A program made the translations under genes and the position numbers. The notes under the pieces are model-generated. The model was given only the letters and a program-made list of their open reading frames with translations, was not told where the DNA came from and did no database searches. A stretch of 64,000 nt of DNA from Pseudovirgaria hyperparasitica (Eukaryota; Ascomycota; Dothideomycetes; Acrospermales; Acrospermaceae): contig NW_022985563.1 in the NCBI RefSeq assembly GCF_010093815.1, positions 636,247 through 700,246 of the forward strand, given 5' to 3'. The first letter of the stretch is position 1. Each line of letters begins with the position of its first letter. Positions 25,674 to 58,411 of the stretch are shown here, one piece after another.

Positions 25674-28181
25674 ATGGCGGCTCAACCGACCATGCTTCGC
25701 TGGCATGAGCGAGGCTGCAAGCATCCTGAAGTCTCTGCTGAAATTGGCGTGCCGGTTTGCAGATATTGTTTTGCAATGGCTCCCCAGGACACGATTCGAA
25801 TCGGTCAAACGGCAAACAGGCAGCCAAGGAGGAATCTCAGATGGCCACCCGCTGTCGTATATACGACTGGACCAGAAGCATCAGAGACGAGCAACGACAT
25901 GCCTTCGCCTCAAATTACTACGGAACCGAGCGAAAATCAATCAGGATTGAGGCCACTCTTAAGGTCACAGAGTGACATTCGACTGTTTCGCGTGAAGCCA
26001 GGCAGCCCTCACGACTTGATCTATGGAGACATGGAGCTGGTAGATCTTGGAAGCTCTGATATCCCCGCCTATGACACCGTCTCCTATACCTCCGCTGACG
26101 ACTCTGGCGAACAGAGCTCAAGTTCGGCGGCGATATACGTCGGAAAATATTGGGACATAGCATATGTTGCGCAAGCCTGCGAACATGCCCTCAGGAGAGT
26201 GAGGAGCCGTAGAACTTCTCGACTGTTCTGGGTGGACGCGCTTTGCCTTGGCTTCGAGAGCACAAAGGAGAAGGATCATCACATCTTTCAGATGCACAGC
26301 ATCCACGGCAAGGCATCGAAAGCGATTGCGTACATAGGAGAAGCATCGGCAGATAGCGCAGAGGCACTGGCGTTCATGGGTCGAGAAGGGAGCGAGCCCG
26401 AGCAGATCAGCGAAAGCACACGTAAAGCCCTCGAGTCATTGTTTGCGAGACCCTTCTTCTCACGGCTATGGATCCTGCTGGAGATGGTCTTTGCCACAGA
26501 TATCAACATTCTCTGTGGCCCAGATGCAATCATGTGTCCGATGCTCTCATTGGCCACACGCCTTGCCAACACCAACGCCCCTACTTGGATCTCGCAACGT
26601 CCTGTATGGCGTGACACGCTGTCTCACGCACCTCTCATGGAGATCCTGACTCTTACCTCAGGCTATCGATGCCTTGATCCCCGTGATAAGGTGTTCAGCC
26701 TGCTTGCTTTCAGGGTAAATGATGAAATCGCCTCTGACTACTCGCTCGCTGTCGAAGAGGTCTACACCGGTCTGGCCGCTTATCTCATTCAGATTCAGCA
26801 TGCATTCGACATTCTAGTGTTCAGCAGCTCTCACAGCACGCAACACAGCGTGCCCAATTGGTTGCCCAGTTGGGTGCCCGACTGGTCCCAGAAGCTGGTC
26901 ACAACATTACCCACGCAGACAGACCTGGAGCACGAAGACTTTGACATGGAGCATGCCGAGACGGAAACGGCAACTCCGGTCTCCTTCAAAGGCCCGTTCA
27001 GAACCGACATCAGTGACGCTGTCCGGATCGATTCTTCCACCGGCTCGCTACAAGTCTATGCCTTTCGATTGTGCAAACTTGCCGGGCGAAAGGTGTTTGC
27101 AAACGGACAGGCCAAAATTATCATGGAAAGAGGTCAGCGAGGATCACTGGTCGTCACTGTGAAAGACACGGCCTACGAGCCCAGCAGCGATTGGGTATTC
27201 TTACTGCACGGATGGGAGCAGCCAGTCGTCTTAAGGGCTCAGAAGGGCTTGGAATCTTTCACCTTTGTCTCCACATGCATACTGGCAGTTGGAAGAACGT
27301 CAGGAAGTTGTTTCATTTCCTCGAACCAGGGACTCTATGACATGGATGACCGGATCGAAGCGGCACAGTTCTCGCCAGAGGACTGTGCCAGCTTCGAACA
27401 GTTCCATGACGGGCTGACGGAGTTGCATAGAATCCGAGCTATGAACAGTGCAACTTCTGAGGAGAAGATACTCAGAGTCCTGGATTACAAGCTCTTGTCC
27501 CTGACAGGAACTTGGGCGATTGAATCAAGTATGATGAACAAATGGACCCAGCTCGAGCAGCAGCTAGGCTGGATGTTCTTGGACCAGGCCGCCCTGGGAA
27601 ACTTCATCGAGAGTTTGGATCACAGAGACGCGCACCAATACCAAGGAAGCGGTCCAATGCTTGTCGAACCCAATGAGATGGTCGGCTTTTCGAGGTATTG
27701 CGGAGCAGAGCTGCGACAGAGTGTGTCCTGGGACATCCGTCGCTTCTGTTCCACATTTCTTCGACGGCCAGAAGAAACAGCAGCAGCCCCAGATTCGTGG
27801 AGCCCCCTCTTTTCGCGATTGCAATCGTCCCTGCCTCAGATTCAAGACTGGGCGAGTCTGACTGAGCAATTGCTAGGACTTCTGGAGCTATCCAGCATGG
27901 TTCTTAGCCGCAGCTGGCCTTTCCCACCTGGTGGCGAACTGTCTGCAAGGTGGCAGAACTCTTGGGCGGACGGCACCGGAAGTACGGAAGATATCACAAG
28001 TAGCACATGCACATGGGACTGGTCGGAGTTCAAGACCACCATGGCTCTTCGAGCACGGCTGTGGGAGCAATCGTTTCCGGAGCAGCTGGATCCATCAATC
28101 AATCATACAATGGCTGTACAACTTGGCTGCCGGGCCATTGAGTTGAATATAGTCTCGGGCAAGTACATTACGATTGCATAG
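25674..28181 (+). CDS. heterokaryon-incompatibility (HET) domain protein
   Basis: A single-exon protein of 835 residues. An N-terminal Cys motif (C15, C29, C32; HPEVSAEIGVPVCRYC) precedes the HET domain at about 102-275. HET landmarks are DIRLFRVKPG, AYDTVSYTSADD, LFWVDALCLG, IFQMHSIHGKASKAIAYIG and RPFFSRLWILLEM. Downstream features common in the family follow: YRCLDPRDKVFSLLAF, DYSLAVEEVY and WLPSWVPDWS. HET-domain proteins can trigger programmed cell death after fusion of unlike hyphae; most paralogues have no assigned allorecognition role. No second effector domain is visible in the ~430 C-terminal residues. The gene is tail-to-tail with the SRR1-like gene, 112 bases apart. Confidence 0.88.
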   Translation: MAAQPTMLRWHERGCKHPEVSAEIGVPVCRYCFAMAPQDTIRIGQTANRQPRRNLRWPPAVVYTTGPEASETSNDMPSPQITTEPSENQSGLRPLLRSQSDIRLFRVKPGSPHDLIYGDMELVDLGSSDIPAYDTVSYTSADDSGEQSSSSAAIYVGKYWDIAYVAQACEHALRRVRSRRTSRLFWVDALCLGFESTKEKDHHIFQMHSIHGKASKAIAYIGEASADSAEALAFMGREGSEPEQISESTRKALESLFARPFFSRLWILLEMVFATDINILCGPDAIMCPMLSLATRLANTNAPTWISQRPVWRDTLSHAPLMEILTLTSGYRCLDPRDKVFSLLAFRVNDEIASDYSLAVEEVYTGLAAYLIQIQHAFDILVFSSSHSTQHSVPNWLPSWVPDWSQKLVTTLPTQTDLEHEDFDMEHAETETATPVSFKGPFRTDISDAVRIDSSTGSLQVYAFRLCKLAGRKVFANGQAKIIMERGQRGSLVVTVKDTAYEPSSDWVFLLHGWEQPVVLRAQKGLESFTFVSTCILAVGRTSGSCFISSNQGLYDMDDRIEAAQFSPEDCASFEQFHDGLTELHRIRAMNSATSEEKILRVLDYKLLSLTGTWAIESSMMNKWTQLEQQLGWMFLDQAALGNFIESLDHRDAHQYQGSGPMLVEPNEMVGFSRYCGAELRQSVSWDIRRFCSTFLRRPEETAAAPDSWSPLFSRLQSSLPQIQDWASLTEQLLGLLELSSMVLSRSWPFPPGGELSARWQNSWADGTGSTEDITSSTCTWDWSEFKTTMALRARLWEQSFPEQLDPSINHTMAVQLGCRAIELNIVSGKYITIA

Positions 28182-43930: not shown

Positions 43931-45819
43931 ATGTCTGGCGCTTTGAGAAGCATAAAGAATGTCACGAAAGGATACTCCTCAGTAGAAGTAAAGGTTCGCA
44001 ATGGTATGAAATATCTTTCACGACTTGCCGACAGCCCAACTGACGGTATCAGCTACAAGCAACGATCCGTGGGGCCCTCCGGGTTCTGACATGGCCGAAA
44101 TTGCCTCGATGACCTTCAATAGGTTTGTATCTCTTGCAAGTAGAAAGACTAACCTCCCAGCTGATACCGTTATAGCAACACCGATTTCTACCAAATCATG
44201 GACATGCTAGACAAAAGATTGAACGACAAGGGCAAGAACTGGCGACATGTGCTCAAATCCCTCAAGGTACTCGACTATTGTCTACACGAGGGCTCCGAGC
44301 TCGTGGTGACCTGGGCTCGCAAAAACATATATATAATCAAAACGCTGCGTGAGTTCATCTACATCGATGAAGAGGGTCGCGACGTCGGTGCCAATGGTAG
44401 GTCTGCCTCCTAAGAAGCTTGGGAAGCGTGCTAATTCACTCTTTAGTCAGACACTCGGCGAAAGAGCTCACATCACTTATCCTCGATGAAGAACGATTGC
44501 GCACGGAAAGAGCGGACCGAAAGACTTGGAAGTCGCGGGTGACCGGATTGGATGAGTATGGCCCTCCTGGAAGTCATCATCACGAGCCGCCGAAGCGACG
44601 CGAGAGGCCCAGACGGACTGACGAAGAGGATCTCGAGTACAAGCTCGCTATAGAAGCCAGTAAGAACGAGGCAGAGGAAGACCGGAAAAGGCGTGAAAGA
44701 AACGCTGGCGCGGCCGATGACGACGACGATCTTGCAAAAGCAATCAAACTCAGTAAAGAAGAGGAAGAGCTTCGGCGACGAGAGCTGGAGGAGTCGAACG
44801 CAAACTCACTCTTTGATGATACCCCGAGTCAACCTGCTGCGTCGCAACCTACCGGGTTTAATCAGGGGTACCAGCAGCAGGGAGCCGTAGATTGGTATGG
44901 AAATCCAGTAGATCAGCAGCAGTCACAGAACACTGGATTTCTTAACAACGCCTATTCCCAGCCGACCGGAATGCAAGGCCAACAAACAGGCTTTCAGAAC
45001 GGTTTTGGTTATGGGTACCAGCAGTCGCAACAACCCCAACAGACAGGCTTTGACCAGTTTGCTCAGCAGAACTTCATGCAGCCTCAACAGACATCCTTCA
45101 ACATGAATAATCCGTACGGACAACAGATGAATGGGGGTGGTTTTGGCCAACAAGGTTCTTTCGGACAGCAACAGCAACAGGAACAACCACAACAGCCACA
45201 AGAGCAGCAAAGCACGCTGCAAGCTGGCAGCCATAACCCCTGGTCATCAAACCAGCAACAGCAAGATTCCATGAAGCCGCAGCCCACCGGATCCAATAAT
45301 CCATTCGCACCATCGTTCGGTAAGCCGCAGCAACAGCAGCAACAGCACATTCCGACACTGGGTTCCCTCCAGGAGATCCAAGAGCAAAAGACACAAACAC
45401 AATTCAACAATCAAAACTTCAATCCACCCCTGTCTTTTGGCACACCACAGCAAGCACAGCCACAGAAACAAGCTCAACCTCAAGACCCGCATCACGCTCA
45501 ACTCAACGCACTGCTGGCGTCGGGTGACGGCCAGGACACGTTCGGCAATACAGGAAACCTTCGTATTCCCGCACAACACACGGCACCGGGCACGTTTGTC
45601 AATTCGGCTGGAGCTGGCCTGAACCGCTTGAACGCGAACCAGACGGGCAACAATCCGTTCCTCAACTCGCAGTTCACAGGCATGCCCCAACAAACGGGTT
45701 TCACGCAAAATAGGCTGATGCCGGCGCAGACCGGGCCGGCTGGTGGTTTTGGTGGGAACAATCCGTTTGGGAGGCAGCAGGGTCAGCAGCAGCAAGGCGG
45801 GAGCTTGATAGATCTTTGA
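43931..45819 (+). CDS. ENT1: epsin (ENTH-domain endocytic adaptor)
   Basis: Exons 43931-44003, 44053-44122, 44176-44396 and 44447-45819, for 578 residues. The ENTH domain (about 10-140) begins MSGALRSIKNVTKGYSSVEV and includes TSNDPWGPPG, DFYQIMDMLDKRL, GKNWRHVLKSLKVLDYCL and LREFIYIDEEGRDVG. Two ubiquitin-interacting motifs follow (about 182-197 DEEDLEYKLAIEASKNE; 214-230 DDDLAKAIKLSKEEE). The tail is Gln/Asn-rich with many QQTGF or QPTGF units, three NPF motifs (EH-domain ligands) and a C-terminal clathrin box, SLIDL. Epsins bind PI(4,5)P2, ubiquitinated cargo and clathrin at the plasma membrane. All introns restore the frame. A single epsin probably covers the yeast Ent1/Ent2 pair. Confidence 0.95.
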
Positions 45820-46610
45820 GGTTTGCGGTGCATGCGGGGGGCGTGAGGAGTGATGAATAGTGAAGGGATGGTTTGAAAGAGAACTATGCGTCAAGAGCGT
45901 GGGCCTTCCATCTGGCTGGAATATTCTATCATTGGTTGGTGGGTTGGGATTGTACAGATTGAGATTAATTTTGCCCGGATTTGGTGATCGGATTTGTGTG
46001 GCTACTACTAGAGCACACTCGCAGGAGAGAGACACAAACCCTACTACCTAACTACCTACCTACTACTTTGACTACTTAAATACCTATAGCTCTTTTTACT
46101 TTTCTTCTTGGGCTTCATTACACTATCGATGTCTCTCTCTATGCCGTTTCGATCTCATACCGAGTCGTTGTCGGTGTATTTGTGTCTCTGCCTGTCTGTG
46201 CCTGCCGTTCTGTGAGTCTGTGTCTTCCATTTGTGAATCTCACGCGTTTTCAGAGACAATTTTCTTGTCTTGTCTTGTTGTTGGGTTATGCTTGGCTGGC
46301 TCTAGTCTTGTTATTGCTCTGGGCAGACCGTTTTTTTATGGGTTGGCAGGCTGTGCATAGATATGCCTGTTTGCATGTGTGAGAGAGGGATCAGATCCTA
46401 CGGAAGCTGTGTGATGTGTGTTGTGTAGGAGCCGGGGAATTCGAGACTTGTTGTGGTGGTATTGTAAGAGCTGATCTTCCGGATCAAGACAATCAGTTGA
46501 AATGATGCTCTCTACAAGCAAAACACTCTTCTTGGACACGTTTAGCTGCCTGAACAACACCTTGGACTAAGTTTCCGATGTGTGTGACTAAAGTGAATCC
46601 TTCGATAGTT
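45820..46610. other. intergenic, 3' flank of epsin
   Basis: No gene seen. It contains CTAC/CTAA runs near 46040-46090 and TGTCTGTG-type simple sequence near 46180-46220. Confidence 0.5.
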
Positions 46611-47635
46611 TAGATGGATAGAGAAATTCCAACACTTCTTACCAGGCAGAGTCAGTAAAGACTACGATTAATTGGGCTACTCTTATATATCTAAGTTCAA
46701 GGATCTCTCCATGATTCATAAGGATAGCGAGATGCAAGCGTTCTTTACTAGGTAGAGTCACTAAGAATTACCATTAATGGCAGTCTTTTAATATATATAA
46801 CTTATGTATTTTCTCTTTAACTTATATAGATAGTAACGTCCTAGTACTTCTCTTTCGATAGACTTACTACTAACTATAATTAGAGATACTATTATATTAT
46901 ATCTAACGGTACTAATCTCTCTAAAGCTTACATAGATAACATATTCTAAGTATTATCTACTAGATAGAACTAGTAAAGGATATAACTAAAGAAGCTACTC
47001 TAGTAGATCTAACGTATATATTTTCTTTATAGTCTAGATAGATAGTAAACTTCTAGTATTTCTTACTAAATAGATTTACTAATTACTATAATTAGATATA
47101 CTATATTAATATAATTAATATAAGTAATTTCTCTATCATTTCTATAGAGAATAGAATCTAAGTATATTTCTTTAGATAGAATTACTAATTATTCTAATTA
47201 TAGATACTACTCTAGTATATCTAACTTAATATTTCTCTTCTAATTTAGATAGATAATAGAACTTAAGATCTTTCTTTTCTATATAACTACTAAATATTAT
47301 AATAGAAGAAGCTATTCTAAACTATCTAACTTTAATATTTCTCTTTAATCTATATAGATAGTAATAATCTTATATATCTAGCTAGAGTATTTTCTCTATA
47401 GATATTATAGATAGTTATATATTTATATATTTAGCTAGACTATTCTCTCTATACTTTATATAGATATTACTAATATATATTTAATATATAAGTAGATCTT
47501 ATGTCTGGTTATATAGATAGTATAAGTAAATTATATATAAGCTTAAGAGTTGCTTTCTATCTTATATAGATAGTAGAATTTTAGATGGATAAGATTAATA
47601 GAATATTCTCTTAAGTAAATAGATAAGTAGTAACA
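46611..47635 (+). repeat. AT-rich tandem array, ~105-base unit
   Basis: At least seven to eight degenerate units start at about 46611, 46719, 46825, 46931, 47035, 47143, 47246 and 47351 (spacing 103-108). Each begins TAGATAG-like, followed by a CTAGTA-TTTCTTACTA-ATAGA segment, then an ACTATAATTAGA-like segment, and ends in TCTAAC...TTTCTCT. After 47456 the anchor recurs at about half spacing (47510, 47563). Units at the left edge keep more G and C; further right the sequence becomes strongly AT-rich. This looks like repeat-induced C-to-T decay, which is inference. There is no coding potential. Confidence 0.85.
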
Positions 47636-48053
47636 TAGCGCTTTCTAATAGTAGACTACTTTAAATTTCGGTTAACTCAAGTCTACCGTCGTAGTATAAG
47701 ATAATTAAACCTAGCTATGTATGACCTATATCGATTAAGTCTAGTAACTACTTATACAGATTATAAGGACTATAAGAATATTAAAACTACTATTACGTCT
47801 AGATCTAAAGTAATATAACCCTCGTTGAAATGACGAGAATTAAAAGAGTGTCTACTGCATATATTAAGAAAGAATTCATTAGCGAGGCACATACTATGAA
47901 TCGTTATTCATCACGTAGAATCTAGTAACACCGAGAAGGTTATTCAACAATTGCTTCCCCTAAACATAGGGACCAAGGACAGTCATTAGCATAGCTAAGA
48001 TAGCTTCTAGTATACATTTTTGATAGTGCCATCATCATGTACCGTTGCCGGGC
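47636..48053. other. AT-rich flank of the tandem array
   Basis: An AT-biased sequence between the array and the first paralogue gene. No gene or repeat unit could be recognised. Confidence 0.4.
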
Positions 48054-49298
48054 TCAAGTAGACATGTCATCTGCTTTTCTCTTTCTTTCCAGCTCACTAA
48101 GGAAGAGCTCGCTGGTCGCGAACTTCTCCTCCTCGTGTCTTTGGGCGGCGATGCGTAACGCTCGCATCTGTCCAATCAACCGGCGCTTCGACTTTATCTC
48201 TTCTAAGGTCATGTCCGGTGCCAGACTCAGGTATGGAATTACATACTCTGGGTAAAGCGCCATCAGCTCTGTCAAGGTTGTGCGGCTCTGATCAGTCTCT
48301 CCCATCGGGGGGTCGATGCCAAACCCCTGAGGGGCTGGGCCAGCGTCCTCTCCAAAGCCGATGTCAGGCCCAGTGTTGGTATGCTGCTCTTCGTGGACTG
48401 ATCCCCGATTGGATTCATTGTGAGCTCCACTTGGAGCATTGAAGGTATTATGATTGTCAATCGTATTTCTCGCTCCATTCCAACTGTCGTCGTTGTTGTT
48501 GTTGTTACTCCTATTTTTATTGTTTCTCGGAGCTTCGATGCCGTGAAGAGGGAGCGGTGCTTCTTGTACATTGCTACGTGGGGGACTGAAGCTGACTTGC
48601 CGTATTGGGTACCCAGAATCTATATACTGGATTTCGGGTTGGGAAGAATCGTTGCCTGTGAAATTTCGAGGGGACGATACGGTCGATGATTGCATCATGT
48701 GTCCTAGAGGTCTGGTCACGCCGCTGCCTTGAGGTCTTTTACCATCTCTTTGACTTTTGATAGTACTGTTATGCCGTTTGAGGCTTTCGTGAAGAGTCGG
48801 AAGATTCTTGAAGTCGGACAGAGCTTTGTCCACGTGAACTGCTTGTATGCCGAGATAAACCCCTTCTTGATGCTTTTCGGAAGGTAATGAACCATCACTC
48901 TGTGCCTTGGCTAGAACATGTTTGACAATGCCAGCTTTTGCGACGGCTGGATTGTTGATACAGCGTGATAGAACAGAGATGGCTTTACAGAAGTCCTCTG
49001 GCCATTCACCATACTCTTGGTGGACCTTTCCGTCTTTGTACGGAGCGAAGATGCCCGAGTACATTTCATGCAGTTCGGCGTGTGTCAGAGCCCAGTTCTT
49101 GCAAGCTGCTTCCTTATAGATAACAGATTGTGAGTTTGAGACTGTATTGGTGCGATCGTTATCAATATCATTGTTGAGCTGTGAGTTTTCCGCGATCGAG
49201 GGGAGAACAGGAGAATTCTGTTCAGCTTTGATCGAATCGCTTCTAGAGGCAGCCGATGACTGTGCGCGACGGCTTGATGCACGTGTAGTTCTTTTCAT
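48054..49298 (-). CDS. unrecognised protein, paralogue family copy A
   Basis: A single-exon protein of 414 residues with no family I recognise. A Ser/Arg-rich start is followed by a putative domain at about 60-163 with Trp69 (CKNWALTHAELHEMY) and Trp99 (GEWPEDFCKAISVLSRC), ending VYLGIQAVHVDKALSDF. Residues ~170-335 are Asn/Ser/Pro-rich, including a run of Asn near 265. A C-terminal domain at about 340-382 reads LMALYPEYVIPYLSLAPDMT then LEEIKSKRRLIGQMRAL, followed by a charged helix rich in Glu, Lys and Arg. Both domains recur in the genes at 51674 and 54183. A basic start and charged end suggest a nuclear protein, but this is inference. The AT-rich array lies directly downstream. Confidence 0.7.
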   Translation of the reverse strand: MKRTTRASSRRAQSSAASRSDSIKAEQNSPVLPSIAENSQLNNDIDNDRTNTVSNSQSVIYKEAACKNWALTHAELHEMYSGIFAPYKDGKVHQEYGEWPEDFCKAISVLSRCINNPAVAKAGIVKHVLAKAQSDGSLPSEKHQEGVYLGIQAVHVDKALSDFKNLPTLHESLKRHNSTIKSQRDGKRPQGSGVTRPLGHMMQSSTVSSPRNFTGNDSSQPEIQYIDSGYPIRQVSFSPPRSNVQEAPLPLHGIEAPRNNKNRSNNNNNDDSWNGARNTIDNHNTFNAPSGAHNESNRGSVHEEQHTNTGPDIGFGEDAGPAPQGFGIDPPMGETDQSRTTLTELMALYPEYVIPYLSLAPDMTLEEIKSKRRLIGQMRALRIAAQRHEEEKFATSELFLSELERKRKADDMST

Positions 49299-51673
49299 CT
49301 TGATAGAAAAATGGCCGTGATGTTAGAACTTGAGATAGATAAATGCAATGATTGGAGGAGGGTGAGTTTGGGGATAGTGTTTGTAAGACAGGAAAGTAGG
49401 ATCTATATTGAGAAGTGTGGGTTACGGAAGCCGGCATGAGATAACCCGTGAACTTGAGTGTTTTGCCGAACAGTCTTAAGGGGTCGCTGTGTTCCTGTCT
49501 ATCGGACTGTATTTAACCATGGTTTTCACATTATTCCTCGCAAACAGCTCCTTAGCTACCGGTCCTCTCTAATCATAGTTCCAAAGAGTTACACTTAAAT
49601 AGTTGGGACTACGTATCACCAGCAACTTAGACATTATGGCCTTGGAGCCAAAAAAAGCAGCCATAAGTCTTGATATACTTAAAGATCCAAAGCTCGAAGT
49701 AAACATATAAGCACCGGATGGAATTTTTTGAGGCGACGGACGAGCAAGACAAAGGAGAATCTGGGTGGATATGTGATCTGCTTCCACAGAATCTCAGGAA
49801 AGATAATCTCAAAAGATTCTAGTTGATGCTAAGGATATTCTTCCAAAGCGCCTTAAAAAACTTTATGATTCTTCTAAAGTATGACAGTGGACACGAGATT
49901 ATGATCCTATTAGGACAATATAGGTAGATTCAAGCCACTTTTCCCCCTTATAGTTGTGTCCTGAGCTAATGTGACATTCTTAAATGTTGTGATACCAGAT
50001 GAAGTCATTGTTCATCTCTTTCAAGATCCGTGATATGCATCAAATCTAGGCTTTCTCTACGCACGTAACTGTGCAATCAACAATTGACAGTGTCATACCC
50101 CTTTCAGCCACCGAGCTATTGAAACGTTGGGGTAGAAGGATATAGTCAAGGCTTAAGGGGTTATATTAGCTGAGCATACAGATTTGCTAAGAAGAAAAGT
50201 TGAGGTGGAATCTACACGCGTCTTGTTAAGTGTAAACTGACTTGTAAGATTGTGTATGATGACTTTCTCCAATATATGTCGCCTATAATATAATAAGCTT
50301 CGTCTTGTGAATAACCATGAACTAATCTTTTGAGTATATTCTCATTTGTAATAGGCGTCGCTACAATGCGGCATTGTACATCGGAACAGTGGAGTCTGAC
50401 TCTTAGATATCAGAGGTGCTATTTGGACGGTGGGTCGTCGTTAGTCTTCCCATGATTGATCCACCTACTATGTACCGATTACACCGAAAACGAGGCTCTA
50501 ATATCCTGGAGCTACAACGGATATATATCGAACAAAGCATACTAAGGCAGAGCAGCTTCTCGTACCCTCCGATTCGACAATTTTAGCGGTAAAGAAACTA
50601 GACCAGCCATGGCGAACGAACCAAGGGAAAGCGAGAACGGTGAAACTCACGTGGTAGTGGTGATAGGCCTGGCAAGTACAACAGCAGAGATATCCAGCTG
50701 ATCCACTATTGCGTAGAACGCACCACGATAATTAGATATTCCACTGCCAGAGCACCTCAGACGAACCGTAAGTCAATCGTCCTTCATTGCTTCTATCAAA
50801 GGCCTTCCTGACAGTCTCTCCGACCTTTCAGTAGCTCCATGAAGGAAGTCGCTAGAAAACCTTTCTCTAAAATTCGGTAGACACAAATGCTTAGTCTCGG
50901 GTGACTCCTTCTCCACCACTATTAGACGACACGAGAATCTCCTTTCATATCTTCGCAGGACCAAATTATACACACATTGACAATGATGAAGGTGGAATAT
51001 ACATGGCCTAAACAGCCAGCCTCACAAAATTAAAGACTATCATGTCTTTGTACCAGAAGTTCAAGATATCATCCCTGTGTTATGGCGATATAGAGATCTG
51101 ACAGATATCGAGACTATAAAAGCGTTATTGATAACATGATGGCTTTCAATATTACATAACAAGTCAAAGATATGCCCGATGACCTCTCTTTGTACGAGCT
51201 TCGACCTCATTGAAAGAAAAGGATGAACATCATGTGTAGGATACCATTCTGGGTCTGGTCAGGAAGTCAGTGGGAACTATTCTAGATCAAGGTCGGATAA
51301 ATCATTCTGTTATTGAAGAAGCTATCTATGTGCGTTCGTGGGGCAAAAGTCGCCTTCAACGATCTCACTACAGTACATGCTGCTCTGCTAAAGAAGGTGA
51401 GATACTACCAAGTATCTTCTAGTCTTTGTCTAGTGTGCATGTGAAAATACAATATTACATTGAACGAAACCTCGACGTCCTGCCAAAGGGGGATTACAGC
51501 AGGAAACAAAAGCAGCTTAAAGCTCGAATCAATATCGAAGTGACAAGACCTTCAACCAAGATGACAATCCGATATGAACGCCATCAATGACACAACGCCC
51601 TTCCACAGCAACCAATGCCATCAACAGTGCCTAATCTTCACCAATTTTCTTTCAACCCTCAATATACCTATGT
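49299..51673. other. gene-free stretch with probable decayed coding DNA
   Basis: No intact gene. Short open stretches read like protein on the plus strand, for example around 51025-51130 (KDYHVFVPEVQDIIPVLW) and 51310-51570, and also near 49637-49700. Stops and frame changes separate them. I cannot assign them to a family. They may be relics of a mobile element or of a further family copy. Confidence 0.35.
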
Positions 51674-53056
51674 CTATCCCTCGGCAAGTTCTTCATCCCC
51701 AGTTTCATCTCCTGCCATGCTATTATCATTGCCTTCGTCCTCCAATGCTCCAGCAATCCTCTCTCGACCCTCGAGAAAAAGTTTAGAAAGACCGAGTCGA
51801 GCCTGCTCCTCAGGGCTCTCGAATTTCGGCAAGCTCCTCATGTAGTCGATCATGAGGACCTTTGTGTTGAGATCCGTGAAACTCATGGCCGTATCAAGTG
51901 TCAGATACGGAGAGGAGAAGTGAGGGAGGAATCTCGCGAGATCTTCAAGCGTATGGAATGTGTCGTGGTTAGCAAAACGAGCATAGTACTCAGGGAGATT
52001 GTGGCTGGAAGTAGGCACAAGCTGGTTCTTGTTGGCAGTCTCAGAGCTCTGAGGGTCATGGTCGATGGAGCTGCTGGCCCTGTCATTTGAAGGTGGAGAA
52101 GTGGAGCTGTTCTCGCGCGACGCTTCAGAGCTTTCTTGCCTGTTGCTATCGATGGTGTGTTCGTCTGACTGATTCATCAGTAATTGGTCATATGGTGGAG
52201 CATGCACGTTTCCGTTCTGTAGCATTGTCTCACCGGGTTGAGTATCCGCATCTCCATGAATCATTGCCCCGTTATGGAGATGGTCAGACGTAGTAGAATC
52301 ATCTGCATCTCTGATACTGAGTCCATTTTCAGAATTACCATCGTTGACATCACTGCCATGGAGGCTGCGATGTTGATTTCCCTCAGAAGCGTTGGGTCCA
52401 CGACGGGTGCGGGTACGTCTGATGCTTTCGTGATATGGCTGGAGGCCGTCGTTGTCACTCAGTTCGTCGTCCCAACGCGACTTACGCTTCTGGGGCCTGG
52501 GTAAGAAAATTTCGTCTAGTTCTGTTTTGCTCTTTTGGGTAATCTCGTCCAGTAACTTGGGCTCTCTCGCAATTGTATCACAAGCTGCATCGATATCCCC
52601 TCTCTTGACACCACATTGATTTTTGTGGGAATTCTTTCCCTTGCGATCCTTTGTATGCTGGAGGACGACTATCCTTGCGATTTCCGGCAGATTCGTAGTC
52701 AATTTAGACAGAGACAAAAGACTGTGAAACAGAGTTCCCGGCCATTCATGAATGGAAGAGAAAGCTATACCATGCTGATTGACGAATACATCGTCCTTGG
52801 AGAACATAGTTCCTAGGTCTGCCACCGTGAAGTCCCAATTCAGGCAAATCTTTTGTATAATATCGACGATACGCTGTGGGTGAGCTTCTGAAACAGACTC
52901 TATGGTTATCGATGGCCTGCTGTCGCATGATTCATCGTCAGATCTATCTGGTGTTACTTTTGACGTCGAAGTGGACCTCTCGTCGCTCTTGGGAGCAGTG
53001 CTACTCATCAGAGGTGTGGACCCTCCTTCCGAGTGTTGTGGGGATGATGGATCCAT
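51674..53056 (-). CDS. unrecognised protein, paralogue family copy B
   Basis: A single-exon protein of 460 residues. It has the same layout as the gene at 48054. The Ser/Asp-rich start is followed by the N-terminal domain at about 63-165 with Trp74 (CLNWDFTVADLGTMF) and Trp105 (HEWPGTLFHSLLSLSKL), ending CGVKRGDIDAACDTIA. A basic stretch PRPQKRKSR (about 186-194) could be a nuclear localisation signal. The linker (about 195-355) is polar, rich in Ser, Asn, Asp and His. The C-terminal domain at about 368-410 reads LARFLPHFSSPYLTLDTAMS, then DLNTKVLMIDYMRSL, and is followed by an acidic tail. Identity with the other two copies is low, but the Trp spacing and the PYL/MT(S)/K/MR-L pattern line up. 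Function unknown. Confidence 0.7.
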   Translation of the reverse strand: MDPSSPQHSEGGSTPLMSSTAPKSDERSTSTSKVTPDRSDDESCDSRPSITIESVSEAHPQRIVDIIQKICLNWDFTVADLGTMFSKDDVFVNQHGIAFSSIHEWPGTLFHSLLSLSKLTTNLPEIARIVVLQHTKDRKGKNSHKNQCGVKRGDIDAACDTIAREPKLLDEITQKSKTELDEIFLPRPQKRKSRWDDELSDNDGLQPYHESIRRTRTRRGPNASEGNQHRSLHGSDVNDGNSENGLSIRDADDSTTSDHLHNGAMIHGDADTQPGETMLQNGNVHAPPYDQLLMNQSDEHTIDSNRQESSEASRENSSTSPPSNDRASSSIDHDPQSSETANKNQLVPTSSHNLPEYYARFANHDTFHTLEDLARFLPHFSSPYLTLDTAMSFTDLNTKVLMIDYMRSLPKFESPEEQARLGLSKLFLEGRERIAGALEDEGNDNSMAGDETGDEELAEG

Positions 53057-54182
53057 CCTTGAGTAACGACAAAAATTTGATACGTAGAGGTCTATGGTGC
53101 GTATTGAGAGTATAAGAGGCGCGTGGCGGTTCTAATGTCTTGGCAACAAATTTGAAAGCTATGACGGAAGTAAACAAGACAGGGCGTGGGACGTAGGAGA
53201 TCTACAGGAACTGTGTGTATTCCTTCTTTTCCTATAGGTACAGCACATAACAAAGGTGCCCACCACTACAGATCTATGTAGTATACTAGGATACACTTCA
53301 CTTGTATATCAGCACGCACATGTCACTCTGCTTATAGATGAGTTCAATATCGCTGGGTGGAGGAACAGTATACTCCGAATCTGAGGAAGATGAATGCAAA
53401 ATAAAGACTTACTACGAGCAGCTTCTGCAATATGGTAACATAATATCTACAATATGCGCTTATTTACAACCGGGGCGCATCCTGATAGTCCTCTTATCAA
53501 TAGCACAAACTCCTCCAGACTCGAGACAAAAAGTGAGCAAACTTGCTTCGAGGTGTAGATTCCCTCAACTCTATCTTTCCGAGGGTGATATATTGCTATG
53601 ATCTCCACGTTTCAAATCGTCCCGAAGACTGAAATTGTTGAGGATGAACAGTGGACTGTATCAGGCTACCCCTGAGCTATGAAAACTCACTTTGATGATT
53701 CTTGACAAGGGAAGTGGGTACTGGAAAGTTCACCCCAATGAGATCGATTATCATAGAGATGAGAAGAGCAGCTATTGGAAGACAACTGTGTTACCCAACG
53801 GAAGAGCCACTGATGAACTGTGTTCGCACTCATTATTACTTAGAGGGTAATTAGGGTCAGTGATCGATTCAAACTACAAAGTGCTTAGAAATGGATTACG
53901 AGCATAGCATTTCTAGGGAACGAGTTATAGCACGGTCGTGCACGCCGTAGTCATAGTCATGTAGATCTGTTGTCCCGGCGACCCACTTCACTCCGGAGTG
54001 TCTTATCGAGCTACAGGGTTTTCGTCTTGTCAAGTCCTTCCCTGAGCTCCACTAAACAAGTTCATACACTACCAGCCACTCTTCTCAACGACACTCTTAT
54101 GTATGTAACAAGCAGTGATTATGTAAGATCTCAGCACAGTCTAGTCCTAACTTCACGTTTAGCTGCGCTCGTGTTCTCGAAG
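53057..54182. other. intergenic between divergent family copies
   Basis: Upstream DNA of copies B and C. An 87-codon open frame at 53338-53601 has no recognisable feature. The frame of copy C is open upstream to 53970, but without a convincing ATG. Confidence 0.4.
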
Positions 54183-55070
54183 ATGGCCTCTCGCCGCAAA
54201 TGCAAAGATGCTACGGCCGTCCGCATCGACAACGATATCTCCGAAATATGTCGAATTTGGGGTATGACATACTTTGAGCTCGAAAGACTTCTTTCCAGCA
54301 ATGGATTGAGCAACTCCAGTGGCAAACCCACGCCCAATATCAAAGACTGGGCAGTTACAATAAGCAGATATCTGAAGAGATTGGCCACTCTCGAAGCTGA
54401 TCCACAAACTGCTATGGGACTCATTCTTTTCGAATCAAAGAAAAGAAATGATGATGATGCGCGTACTTTCCATGCCTTTAGGGGCATTCTTGGTGTTGAC
54501 GTGGATCGTGCTGTAAAAGCTCTGGAATCTCGCAATGGTGCTGCTCATCGAGTGGGTACTATCACCCGACCCCAGGAGCGCACTACGGGCCCTACGAATG
54601 AAAACATCAATCAAGGCAATCAAAATAGCCACCAGTTGACCGCCCATCAGGCACCACTCAACTCAAACAATCGAAACGGCCAGCCGGCCATTACTGAAGG
54701 TCCTATACGCAACGCAAATGCTCGCCCAAATATTCCTAACATGGCCCCTCCTGTTGATCGCAATGGGCTTCCACCTCTCCACGACGTTTCTCTGCAGATG
54801 GCATTCAGCGAGTTTTGGCCACGTTATGCAATGCCCGCGCTAGGAATTCACGGGGCAATGACGACTAACGAGATTAACGTCAAACTTGAGTTCGTCCAGC
54901 ATTTGATGGACCTGGAAAGGAGTGAGAAAGCAGTGGTACAGAAAGAGGCACAAGCAATACAGAGATTGGTGGACGCGGAAAAGCACCAGGTCACCCTCGA
55001 GAAGTTGGAGCTGAACAAGCAGTATCTGGAGGCGATCAAGAGGGAGAAGCAGATGAGGGGGGAGATGTAG
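54183..55070 (+). CDS. unrecognised protein, paralogue family copy C
   Basis: 295 residues from ATG 54183. A basic start (MASRRKCK) leads into the N-terminal domain at about 15-116: Trp26 (CRIWGMTYFELERLL), Trp56 (KDWAVTISRYLKRLATL) and the closing FRGILGVDVDRAVKALES. An Asn/Gln-rich linker covers about 130-195. The C-terminal domain at about 204-245 reads FSEFWPRYAMPALGIHGAMT then NEINVKLEFVQHLMDL, followed by a long Lys/Glu-rich helix (about 245-295), likely a coiled coil. It is the shortest copy and the only one on the plus strand. The frame continues upstream to 53970 with no ATG at its start and an in-frame ATG at 54099; 54183 is chosen because the domain follows at once. Confidence 0.7.
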   Translation: MASRRKCKDATAVRIDNDISEICRIWGMTYFELERLLSSNGLSNSSGKPTPNIKDWAVTISRYLKRLATLEADPQTAMGLILFESKKRNDDDARTFHAFRGILGVDVDRAVKALESRNGAAHRVGTITRPQERTTGPTNENINQGNQNSHQLTAHQAPLNSNNRNGQPAITEGPIRNANARPNIPNMAPPVDRNGLPPLHDVSLQMAFSEFWPRYAMPALGIHGAMTTNEINVKLEFVQHLMDLERSEKAVVQKEAQAIQRLVDAEKHQVTLEKLELNKQYLEAIKREKQMRGEM

Positions 55071-55499: not shown

Positions 55500-56770
55500 T
55501 CAAGTCCTTGCCATCAGATCTTGGAAACAACCCCTGGACGACCTATCTGCTCTTTGTACCTCTCTTATGGCCTCAGCATACCCCGTATCCGGGCTTTGTT
55601 GCCTTTGTATGCGCTCGTTGTACTCTTGAATCTCTTCTGACACCGGACTTTCCCTCCCACACGACGCAGTACCTCTATCAGTGCTCGATGGCTCCCCCGA
55701 TTCTGTAGGTTGTAAGCTCTCCATATGCATGTTCGTCATCTTGCTCATCCTCCTGCCATCAAGCCCCTCGCCAGCAAGCGATCTTCCAAAGCTCCACCTC
55801 GAGGTACGCCGCTGCTCCTCGCGATCCCTGAACCGCGCCTCACAGATGGAGTGATCCATTGTCAGGCTGCCCATTTGTCCTAACTTGAGCGCGCGCAAGC
55901 GATCCAGTGCCGTCTTGAAATCGTCCAGCACCACACTGTCCGTTAGACACTTGAATACGAACGACAGCTTGAAAAAGGGATTGATTCCCGTTGGCATCTT
56001 ATCGTCCAAAACACCTGTTACGCTCAATACATCCGGTACAATAAATACCACACTCACTACCATCGCGCTCAGCATCAACACAAATCTTGGGCTAATCCGT
56101 AGCACATCCCACGCACTCAGCTCATATCTCGCCACAATATTCCAGAACAACGCTACGGTCGTGAAGATCCACCATGGGTCACGGCATAAAGGCTCCCACG
56201 GGCGTGTGCGTAGGAATATGTTCCCCCAGCCGTGAAAATATTGAAAATTTGCAAAGATCTCGACGATCCAGTAGGGCTGGGCGAGGACGACGGTGATTAT
56301 GAAGATTAGGGATGCCCAGCGCGGGAGGAAGGGCTTGATTTTCATCCAGGCGATGACATTGTGCAAGGACCAGGAGGCATTGAGGAGAATCGCCGAAACA
56401 GAAAGCCACCAGGTGTAGATGGGTGGGTGGAAGAGGATCCAGAAGCCGTGAGGAATCCCGAGGAGGAGCTTGAGTTGTGTCAGTATATGTTTTGCTCTAG
56501 CATCTTGATTGTGGTCTCCGGATAGAGGCATCGCTGCGCTGGTAAAACATTAAAGCTCACCTCCAATAGAATCAACTTATGCAACAACACCCCTTTTCGC
56601 ATATTTGCTATTGTGATACAGCTCATCACTACGAGGCTCCCGACCAGAAACCCTTGAGCCCAGCCCTCGAGCAGCAATCCGTCCGGATCTGTCGGTCTGC
56701 CCACATCATTCCTCTTCTCCATCGACACACCTTCCGACTGTACAGCCTGGTCAAGTGGAAATGGCGGCAT
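55500..56770 (-). CDS. conserved fungal multi-pass membrane protein
   Basis: Two exons: 56561-56770 and 55500-56468, for 392 residues. The intron is 92 bases. About five to six hydrophobic segments lie between residues 38 and 220 (for example WAQGFLVGSLVVMSCITI, YTWWLSVSAILLNASW, LIFIITVVLAQPYWIVEI, WWIFTTVALFWNIVA and VLMLSAMVVSVVFIV). Short conserved-looking blocks sit between them: SLHNVIAWMKIKPFL, TRPWEPLCRDPWW and PTGINPFFKLSFVFKCL. I recall this pattern from uncharacterised proteins widespread in filamentous ascomycetes. The C-terminal ~130 residues are polar and probably cytosolic. It resembles no transporter family I can name. The first exon supplies the N terminus and first membrane segment and joins in frame at LILLE|LLLGIP. 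Confidence 0.75.
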
Positions 56771-57361
56771 GAATGGTTTACGTGGTCGATCAAACGTGTC
56801 TTGAGAGGCTCAGGGCGGGGGTCGTCAATCCGGGGCACACACTTTTCCACTCCTTTGCGCAGCTCAAGTTGCATTACTTCCAATTCTTTACCTGACCGAA
56901 CCTCGTCCTCATCACGAAGCCAGCATAGACGTTCAAAGACAAAATGCCTCGTTCCCAAGTTCCCCGCCACGCACGCAACTCAGCGGAAAAACCCTCGCCT
57001 TCGTGGGACACTATCTCCACTATAATCCGCAAAGTACACTATTGACACATGCGCATCGAATGAGCGTCACATAGCTTGCGGAGGACATGTAGCAAACGAT
57101 CAATGCCGTATTGCTCAGATATCCGCTGTCGTCCGCGCATCGCTTAGAAAGCATACATGTATTAATTATACAGTACACAGTAAAGCTTACGCCAGGCTGA
57201 ATTAGGCTTAGTCTTAGCTCCACCAGTTCCCGTCCCGTCCTCGGCCTGTCGTAAATTCACGTCGGCATCCGTCTCGACGACCTCTTTACGCGTCTTGATC
57301 TTCCTTCACCTCCACTCGTAACAATGACTTGAAAGGACATAGTTGTCTGTTCATTTCTATC
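56771..57361. other. intergenic, divergent promoters
   Basis: 591 bases upstream of both the membrane-protein gene and the F-box-like gene. No feature recognised. Confidence 0.45.
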
Positions 57362-58411
57362 ATGTCCAAACCGATCGTCTCATTGGCGAGCCTCAGTCCA
57401 GACTTCTCCACGACTCCAATGACGTCTCAACATGCATCCGAACCAGCACCATATTGGCCCTCACCCTCAACCTCAAGCGTTCACGCCTTGACAGCCCAAC
57501 CCTCCATTCCTTCGCACAATCGCAAAGATGTTTTTCCACTCATGGAGCTACCCGCCGAGCTGCGCATCCTCATATACCGGATGTGCCTCAAGCGTAACCA
57601 CCCAATTCACCTCCACATGCCCTTACCGGAACCACCCCCACCCGATAGAGAAATCTCAGTCTTCGATTCTGAAGGCGAAGAAGAACCAACTTGGGCACAA
57701 CCGGCGCTTAGGACGCACATGCGGGTAACACGAAGTCAGAGGACCCAGGTCCATGTAACGAACCCTCGACTTACCGCCGAGCGCCCTAGTACATGCGGCC
57801 GCGACCGTGACGATAACCTAAACTGCGACCCTCTAGTTACTGCAATCTTGCGCATCAGCAAGCAGGTCCATCATGAAGCACGACCCGTGCTGTATGGAGA
57901 CAACGAATTCGTCGTCGGGCTTGACAGTGCTTTACATACGCTATCACGCCTGCATCAGCGCAGCAGGAGCTTGATCAAAGTTCTCATCATCTCGATCAAC
58001 AGCCATCATGATATCTTGGAAGGCTTCGCGGATCTTATACGGATGGGCATGCGGTATTGCTGGGGGTTGGAAATACTACGCTTGAAACTCACGACCGCCT
58101 TTCCCGAAATGGATCATACTGTAGCATTGTCTGGGCCGAGCTGTGTGTACGCGAATGCATTTCATATCTTGCGCTGGCTGCCCAAACCATGCAAGGTCCG
58201 CTTGGAGGGTCGGGTCCCCGAAGTGATTGAGCGGATTGTTCGGGAGAACGAGAGGAGCGCCGAGACTTTGGATGAGGTGAGCGAATGAAAGATCCATGGA
58301 TGTTCGTATGACACTAACGCTGAGCAGCACGCATACCAGAAACGCCAACATCAGATGCCTGAGAAGGGAACGGTTACCAACAGCTACACGCCCAGTGAGA
58401 ATGGGATATAA
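57362..58411 (+). CDS. F-box-like domain protein
   Basis: Exons 57362-58276 and 58328-58411, for 332 residues. An F-box-like motif at about 60-80 reads FPLMELPAELRILIYRMCL, the form common in large fungal families of short proteins with a LPxELRxxIY motif. A second block, ILRISKQVHHEARPVLYGDNEF (about 160-185), is also typical: these proteins carry an L..CR/KQ..EA...LY...F segment after the F-box. The middle is Pro/Glu-rich. Such proteins may link substrates to SCF ubiquitin ligase, but this subfamily is uncharacterised. The frame is open upstream to 57329 without ATG. The second exon adds a short polar tail. Confidence 0.72.

Follow-up and report, generated by a model that had tools for sequence, protein, structure and literature searches.

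In a stretch of 64,000 nucleotides from the ascomycete Pseudovirgaria hyperparasitica (contig NW_022985563.1; C15:636247-700246; hereafter the window), three genes, here called A, B and C, lie close together and appear to belong to one strongly diverged protein family. The earlier note, made from the letters of this DNA, had described them as three divergent paralogues of an unrecognised two-domain family, and the three open reading frames (ORFs) were found where it had placed them. Paralogue A (48054-49298, minus strand) is a single open frame of 414 amino acids (aa), with an N-terminal domain (N-domain) at about residues 51-176, a polar linker and a C-terminal domain (C-domain) at about 336-414. 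Paralogue B (51674-53056, minus strand) is also a single open frame, of 460 aa, with an N-domain at about 53-184, a linker and predicted C-terminal helices at 393-408 and 415-443. Paralogue C (54183-55070, plus strand) encodes 295 aa from the ATG at 54183, with the N-domain at about 9-127 and the C-domain at about 196-295; as read from its sequence, its linker is short and Asn/Pro-rich, its C-domain carries a long charged stretch and a second ATG lies upstream in frame at 54099. Searches of the organism's own genome, which covered the 35.0-Mb, 59-contig assembly, led to a fourth member, D, on contig C18 (L017:4864-6197), whose first frame (L003:1375-2379) encodes an N-domain and a polar linker. 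The linkers are Ser-rich in A, B and D and Asn-rich in A and C.

The codon use of A, B and C is coding-like. With a codon log-odds score whose training set was six further long ORFs from the window (four have Pfam matches), the given frame was the top of the six frames for A (0.099), B (0.126), C (0.121) and the first frame of D (0.067), and the next best frame was on the reverse strand each time (0.071, 0.086, 0.084 and 0.057, respectively). The training ORFs themselves scored 0.105-0.190, a range that includes B and C and lies above A and the first frame of D. By hydropathy, neither a signal for secretion nor a membrane helix was seen in A, B, C or the first frame of D: no 19-residue Kyte-Doolittle window exceeded 0.99, and no N-terminus was hydrophobic, the best window within residues 1-33 reaching -0.57 in A, -0.76 in B, 0.23 in C (taken from the ATG at 54183) and -0.31 in D. 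Thus, as judged by hydropathy alone, the signal peptide of secreted effector-like proteins is absent from all four.

The motifs on which the family had been proposed were confirmed in all three genes. The paired Trp residues are at W69/W99 in A, W74/W105 in B and W26/W56 in C, the T-x-x-(E/D)-L and G-(I/V)...(V/I)D.A motifs are present in each, and the C-terminal pattern recurs with P, P, L, M and K invariant. A charged C-terminal helix had been noted for A and C; to these B can be added, with a long helix predicted near its C-terminus at 415-443. With D included, all four N-domains have two Trp residues, T-x3-L and a Gly ahead of the last helix, and the residues W, T, L, G, W, L, A and G are invariant in 4/4.

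Leave-one-out profile searches carry the case for common descent. For each domain, a hidden Markov model (HMM) of three members was run against 2271 six-frame stop-to-stop segments (at least 20 aa) from the window and from a 9.9-kb stretch around D, and in 8/8 tests the held-out member ranked right after the three training members, with the following rows at E values of 0.92 or above. The held-out N-domains were recovered at E values of 5e-11 (A), 2.3e-9 (B), 1.2e-8 (C) and 2.4e-10 (D), and the C-domains of A, B and C at 2.3e-5, 7.4e-4 and 4.8e-3; the domain limits were set after the alignments had been viewed and D was chosen through a search with B, which favours these tests somewhat. When each member was compared by hhalign with the profile of the other three, its score was reached by 0/60 shuffles in 7/8 tests and by 1/60 for the C-domain of D. 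Comparisons of single sequences were weaker, with best BLASTP E values of 1e-5 (A-B), 0.014 (A-C) and 4e-4 (B-C), and single-sequence hhalign missed the C-D pair for the N-domain (E 0.19) and the A-D and C-D pairs for the C-domain (E 0.53 and 0.46). Pairwise BLASTP alone is therefore unconvincing, and the paralogy of A, B and C is accepted on the profile tests. On this sequence evidence, the N-domains of A, B, C and D are homologous and the C-domains of A, B and C appear to be so as well, with weaker support. Profile comparison of the three, which had been named as the way to refute their paralogy, gave significant similarity for the N-domain and, more weakly, for the C-domain, so that the paralogy claim is supported.

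The proposed cluster of three is real, but the family has at least four copies, the fourth N-domain being on another contig. Besides itself, B recovered D (E 0.026), A (0.031 and 0.097) and, weakly, C (2.75) from the genome; the first 148 residues of D recovered B (0.006) and A (0.076), the N-domain of A recovered D (0.057), the N-domain of C recovered B (0.12) and the C-domain of B recovered A (0.002). All non-self matches were family members, and since these searches score the best candidates only, the family may be larger. A profile search for decayed extra copies near the cluster, which misses pieces shorter than 20 residues, gave, beyond the members and their duplicate loci, only rows at E values of 1.8 or above. 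On its own contig, D is flanked by a Uds1/DUF7801 gene and by the gene for the V-ATPase 116-kDa subunit, in DNA with a GC content of 0.42-0.55. Its charged, C-domain-like segment (L003:2319-2708) is in a different reading frame from the N-domain, and the sequence suggests that an intron likely lies between the two.

N-domain identities are low throughout (A-B 26/118, A-C 20/116, A-D 28/119, B-C 27/117, B-D 23/117 and C-D 21/114), and A, B and C are as far from one another as from D (17-24% identity). Maximum-likelihood distances between the N-domains are saturated, at 2.5-3.6 substitutions per site, and the tree of four has a single internal split, which joins B with C at a support of 68. Because the tree is saturated, no order of duplication is claimed; the divergence would fit either old duplications or fast change.

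In the AlphaFold2 model of the N-domain of A, built from four alignment rows (mean predicted local distance difference test (pLDDT) 82.6; predicted template modelling score (pTM) 0.75), helices span residues 4-18, 22-28, 50-62, 66-84 and 102-114, with a short beta element after the second and a further, low-confidence helix at 118-124. The domain is thus confidently predicted to form a compact five-helix fold. In the model of full-length B, residues 61-180 fall in blocks with pLDDT of 60-91 and the blocks of 391-440 at 70-83, while the linker (181-334 and 336-367) stays below 50, and the C-terminal helices at 393-408 and 415-443 are modelled. The helix order of B at residues 60-164 is the same as in the N-domain of A, in two runs that share alignment rows.

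The family had been called unrecognised, and no significant match was found in Pfam, in PDB sequences or by Foldseek against PDB and BFVD; "undescribed" here rests on Pfam-A, on PDB, on BFVD structures and on scans of viral and prokaryotic contigs with B. Pfam returned 0 families for the four N-domains at a maximum E value of 10 (the HMMER filters remove most rows above about 0.1), and it gave no AAA core or AAA-lid match in full-length A, B and C or in the four N-domains, no DNA-binding domain in A, B, C or D and no HET domain (PF06985) in A, B or C. The N- and C-domain profiles, and A and B singly, had no significant match among PDB sequences, and at a Foldseek E value of 0.001 or below the A model had 0/185 matches in PDB and 0/87 in BFVD and the B model 0/28 in PDB. 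With B as the query, 4 stretches of viral contigs and 10 of prokaryotic genome contigs matched a pattern and 0 were confirmed in either set, in scans where one query protein can detect no more than close relatives.

Several weak matches were set aside as chance. These were PF22488 in B (E 0.058; 14.3 bits against a cut-off of 27), the Cut12 conserved domain (PF11500), which was matched by one of the four C-domain members (best E 0.023; E 0.14 and 12.5 bits for the downstream frame of D, below the curated cut-off of 24.5), DUF5889, matched weakly by one C-domain member, and PDB-sequence rows at E values of 0.44-1.1 (three), 0.93-1.6 (three) and 0.88 (one).

The AT-rich decayed array that had been placed beside these genes is also present. 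The block at 46501-48000 (no strand assigned) adjoins A as context outside the family, has a GC content of 0.186-0.334 and contains a degenerate tandem array at 46798-47264 (212-bp period, 2.2 copies, 74% match). Its TpA/ApT ratio is 1.34-1.44 and its composite index 0.79-1.31, values which we take to be like those left by repeat-induced point mutation (RIP) on the customary index thresholds, and for part of it a single short relative occurs on C26 (81% over about 70 bases). In the windows that cover A, B and C, the composite index is negative. RIP targets similar, recent duplicates; A, B and C, at their present divergence, would therefore escape it. The genome search reported no further copy of the stretch at 49450-51670, which is thus not a recognisable repeat. 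The surroundings are gene-poor, as had been proposed: between the end of a UIM/DUF1720 ORF (45819) and an ORF at 55500, ORFs of at least 180 aa are limited to A, B, C and one at 45247-46035 (minus strand), which overlaps the UIM/DUF1720 ORF on the opposite strand.

Elsewhere in the window, a HET-domain ORF of 835 aa lies at 25674-28181 (plus strand), and near the cluster an ORF at 57329-58288 (plus strand) has DUF7730, 2EXR and F-box-like matches, all under their curated cut-offs. The sole 5.8S ribosomal RNA match reported in the assembly (G000:C40:7541-7694, L022; 39 scored out of 965 candidates) belongs to a stretch that can be read as 18S, internal transcribed spacer, 5.8S and 28S and looks TA-rich by eye, as if a ribosomal DNA copy had been struck by RIP.

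We tentatively favour a reading in which A, B and C, together with D at its unlinked locus, make up a single, strongly diverged family whose proteins are soluble, stay inside the cell and may act as adaptors. With its folded N-domain such a protein would bind a partner, the linker, rich in Ser, Asn and Pro, would serve as a flexible tether, and the helical hairpin at the C-terminus could self-associate or bind a second partner; as the copies diverged, each might have come to serve a different partner. It is also possible, with slightly more reserve, that the N-domain is an undescribed fungal domain whose fold is either its own or a strongly drifted AAA-lid-like one, in an old family that continues to duplicate and diverge, with D, next to the vacuolar ATPase gene, as a putative founder and fast-evolving daughters near RIP-like DNA. 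Several results weigh against the reading of one adaptor family. An adaptor is what one would assume by default for such an architecture, and the full-length B model is poor overall (pLDDT 53.5, pTM 0.32). In the searches of the genome, E values between members were mostly above 0.01, and three queries recovered only themselves: full-length A at a threshold of 0.001, and both full-length C and the downstream frame of D at a threshold of 10. The held-out C-domain of D had an E value of 0.45, which is not significant, and since this part of D is in another frame, joining it to the N-domain requires an intron or a break. Moreover, the lead of the coding frame over the best reverse-strand frame is small (0.010-0.040).

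That the similarity is convergent, or a low-complexity artefact among unrelated orphan ORFs, is highly improbable. Single-sequence comparison is weak and pairs of N-domains share just 20-28 matches per 114-119 positions, but the held-out N-domains, which lie outside the low-complexity linker, were recovered at E values of 1.2e-8 or below with scores that 0/60 shuffles reached, and the same helix order appears in the A and B models, shared alignment rows notwithstanding. A role as nuclear transcription or chromatin cofactors, with the N-domain docked on a DNA-binding or chromatin protein and activation segments in the linker, seems rather unlikely. It would fit the acidic, aromatic 20-residue segment of the D linker, whose score was reached by 25/1000 shuffles, and the short basic clusters of all four proteins; however, the linkers of A and C have no window within the acidic-hydrophobic limits, the best of B was reached by 559/1000 shuffles, and Pfam gave no DNA-binding domain. 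Counts of strict basic motifs are 1 (A), 0 (B), 1 (C) and 2 (D), which 570, 2000, 569 and 67 of 2000 shuffles reached, respectively, and the argument from nuclear localisation was dropped for A, B and C.

Membership of a fungal repertoire for self/non-self recognition or host interaction would explain both the clustering and the divergence of copies that adjoin the RIP-like AT-rich block, and a HET-domain gene (25674-28181) shares the window. This appears quite unlikely, as A, B and C match no HET or other recognition domain in Pfam and have no hydrophobic N-terminus, and D lies between the Uds1 and V-ATPase subunit genes at ordinary GC. The N-domain could also be a distant, free-standing relative of the AAA+ helical lid that works with an AAA+ machine (p97 or the proteasome base) as its adaptor. 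By title, 45/50 of the best 50 of 185 PDB matches of the A model were AAA+ proteins or AAA+-based complexes, and 10/50 of the best 50 of 87 BFVD matches carried names of AAA or other ATPase-family proteins, with six among the top 11, so that these titles may serve as a mere lead. The best E values were nevertheless 1.4 (PDB) and 0.47 (BFVD), query-normalised template modelling scores were at most 0.40 among the matches listed, only 4/28 PDB rows of the full-length B model were AAA+-related by title, and Pfam gave no AAA or lid match. Moreover, the lid as the matched part would have to be deduced, the search answers coming without coordinates, and this relationship is very doubtful.

If the family of A, B, C and D proves widespread, a folded domain would be added to the uncharacterised part of fungal proteomes. 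The four sequences, the confident model and the second locus between the Uds1 and V-ATPase subunit genes offer a handle for tracing it elsewhere, and the cluster could serve as a test case for paralogue divergence in a genome with RIP-like DNA, with the signature in the AT-rich block and not in the genes.

Among known systems, the helical lid of AAA+ ATPases (p97/Cdc48, proteasome Rpt) resembles the N-domain as a compact helical bundle and in the titles matched by the A model; by comparison, the A and B models have no significant structural match and Pfam no AAA or lid match. The Cut12 conserved domain (PF11500) is alike in its weak match to the C-domain, but the match is below its cut-off and most plausibly reflects a generic charged helix. 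Filamentous fungi commonly carry undescribed families that diverge, and lineage-specific, uncharacterised paralogous families form a category of their own in filamentous ascomycetes. A, B, C and D resemble these in their low identity, disordered-looking linkers and genes near RIP-like AT-rich DNA, and differ in that their shared domain is confidently modelled here and that one member, D, sits between the Uds1 and V-ATPase subunit genes.

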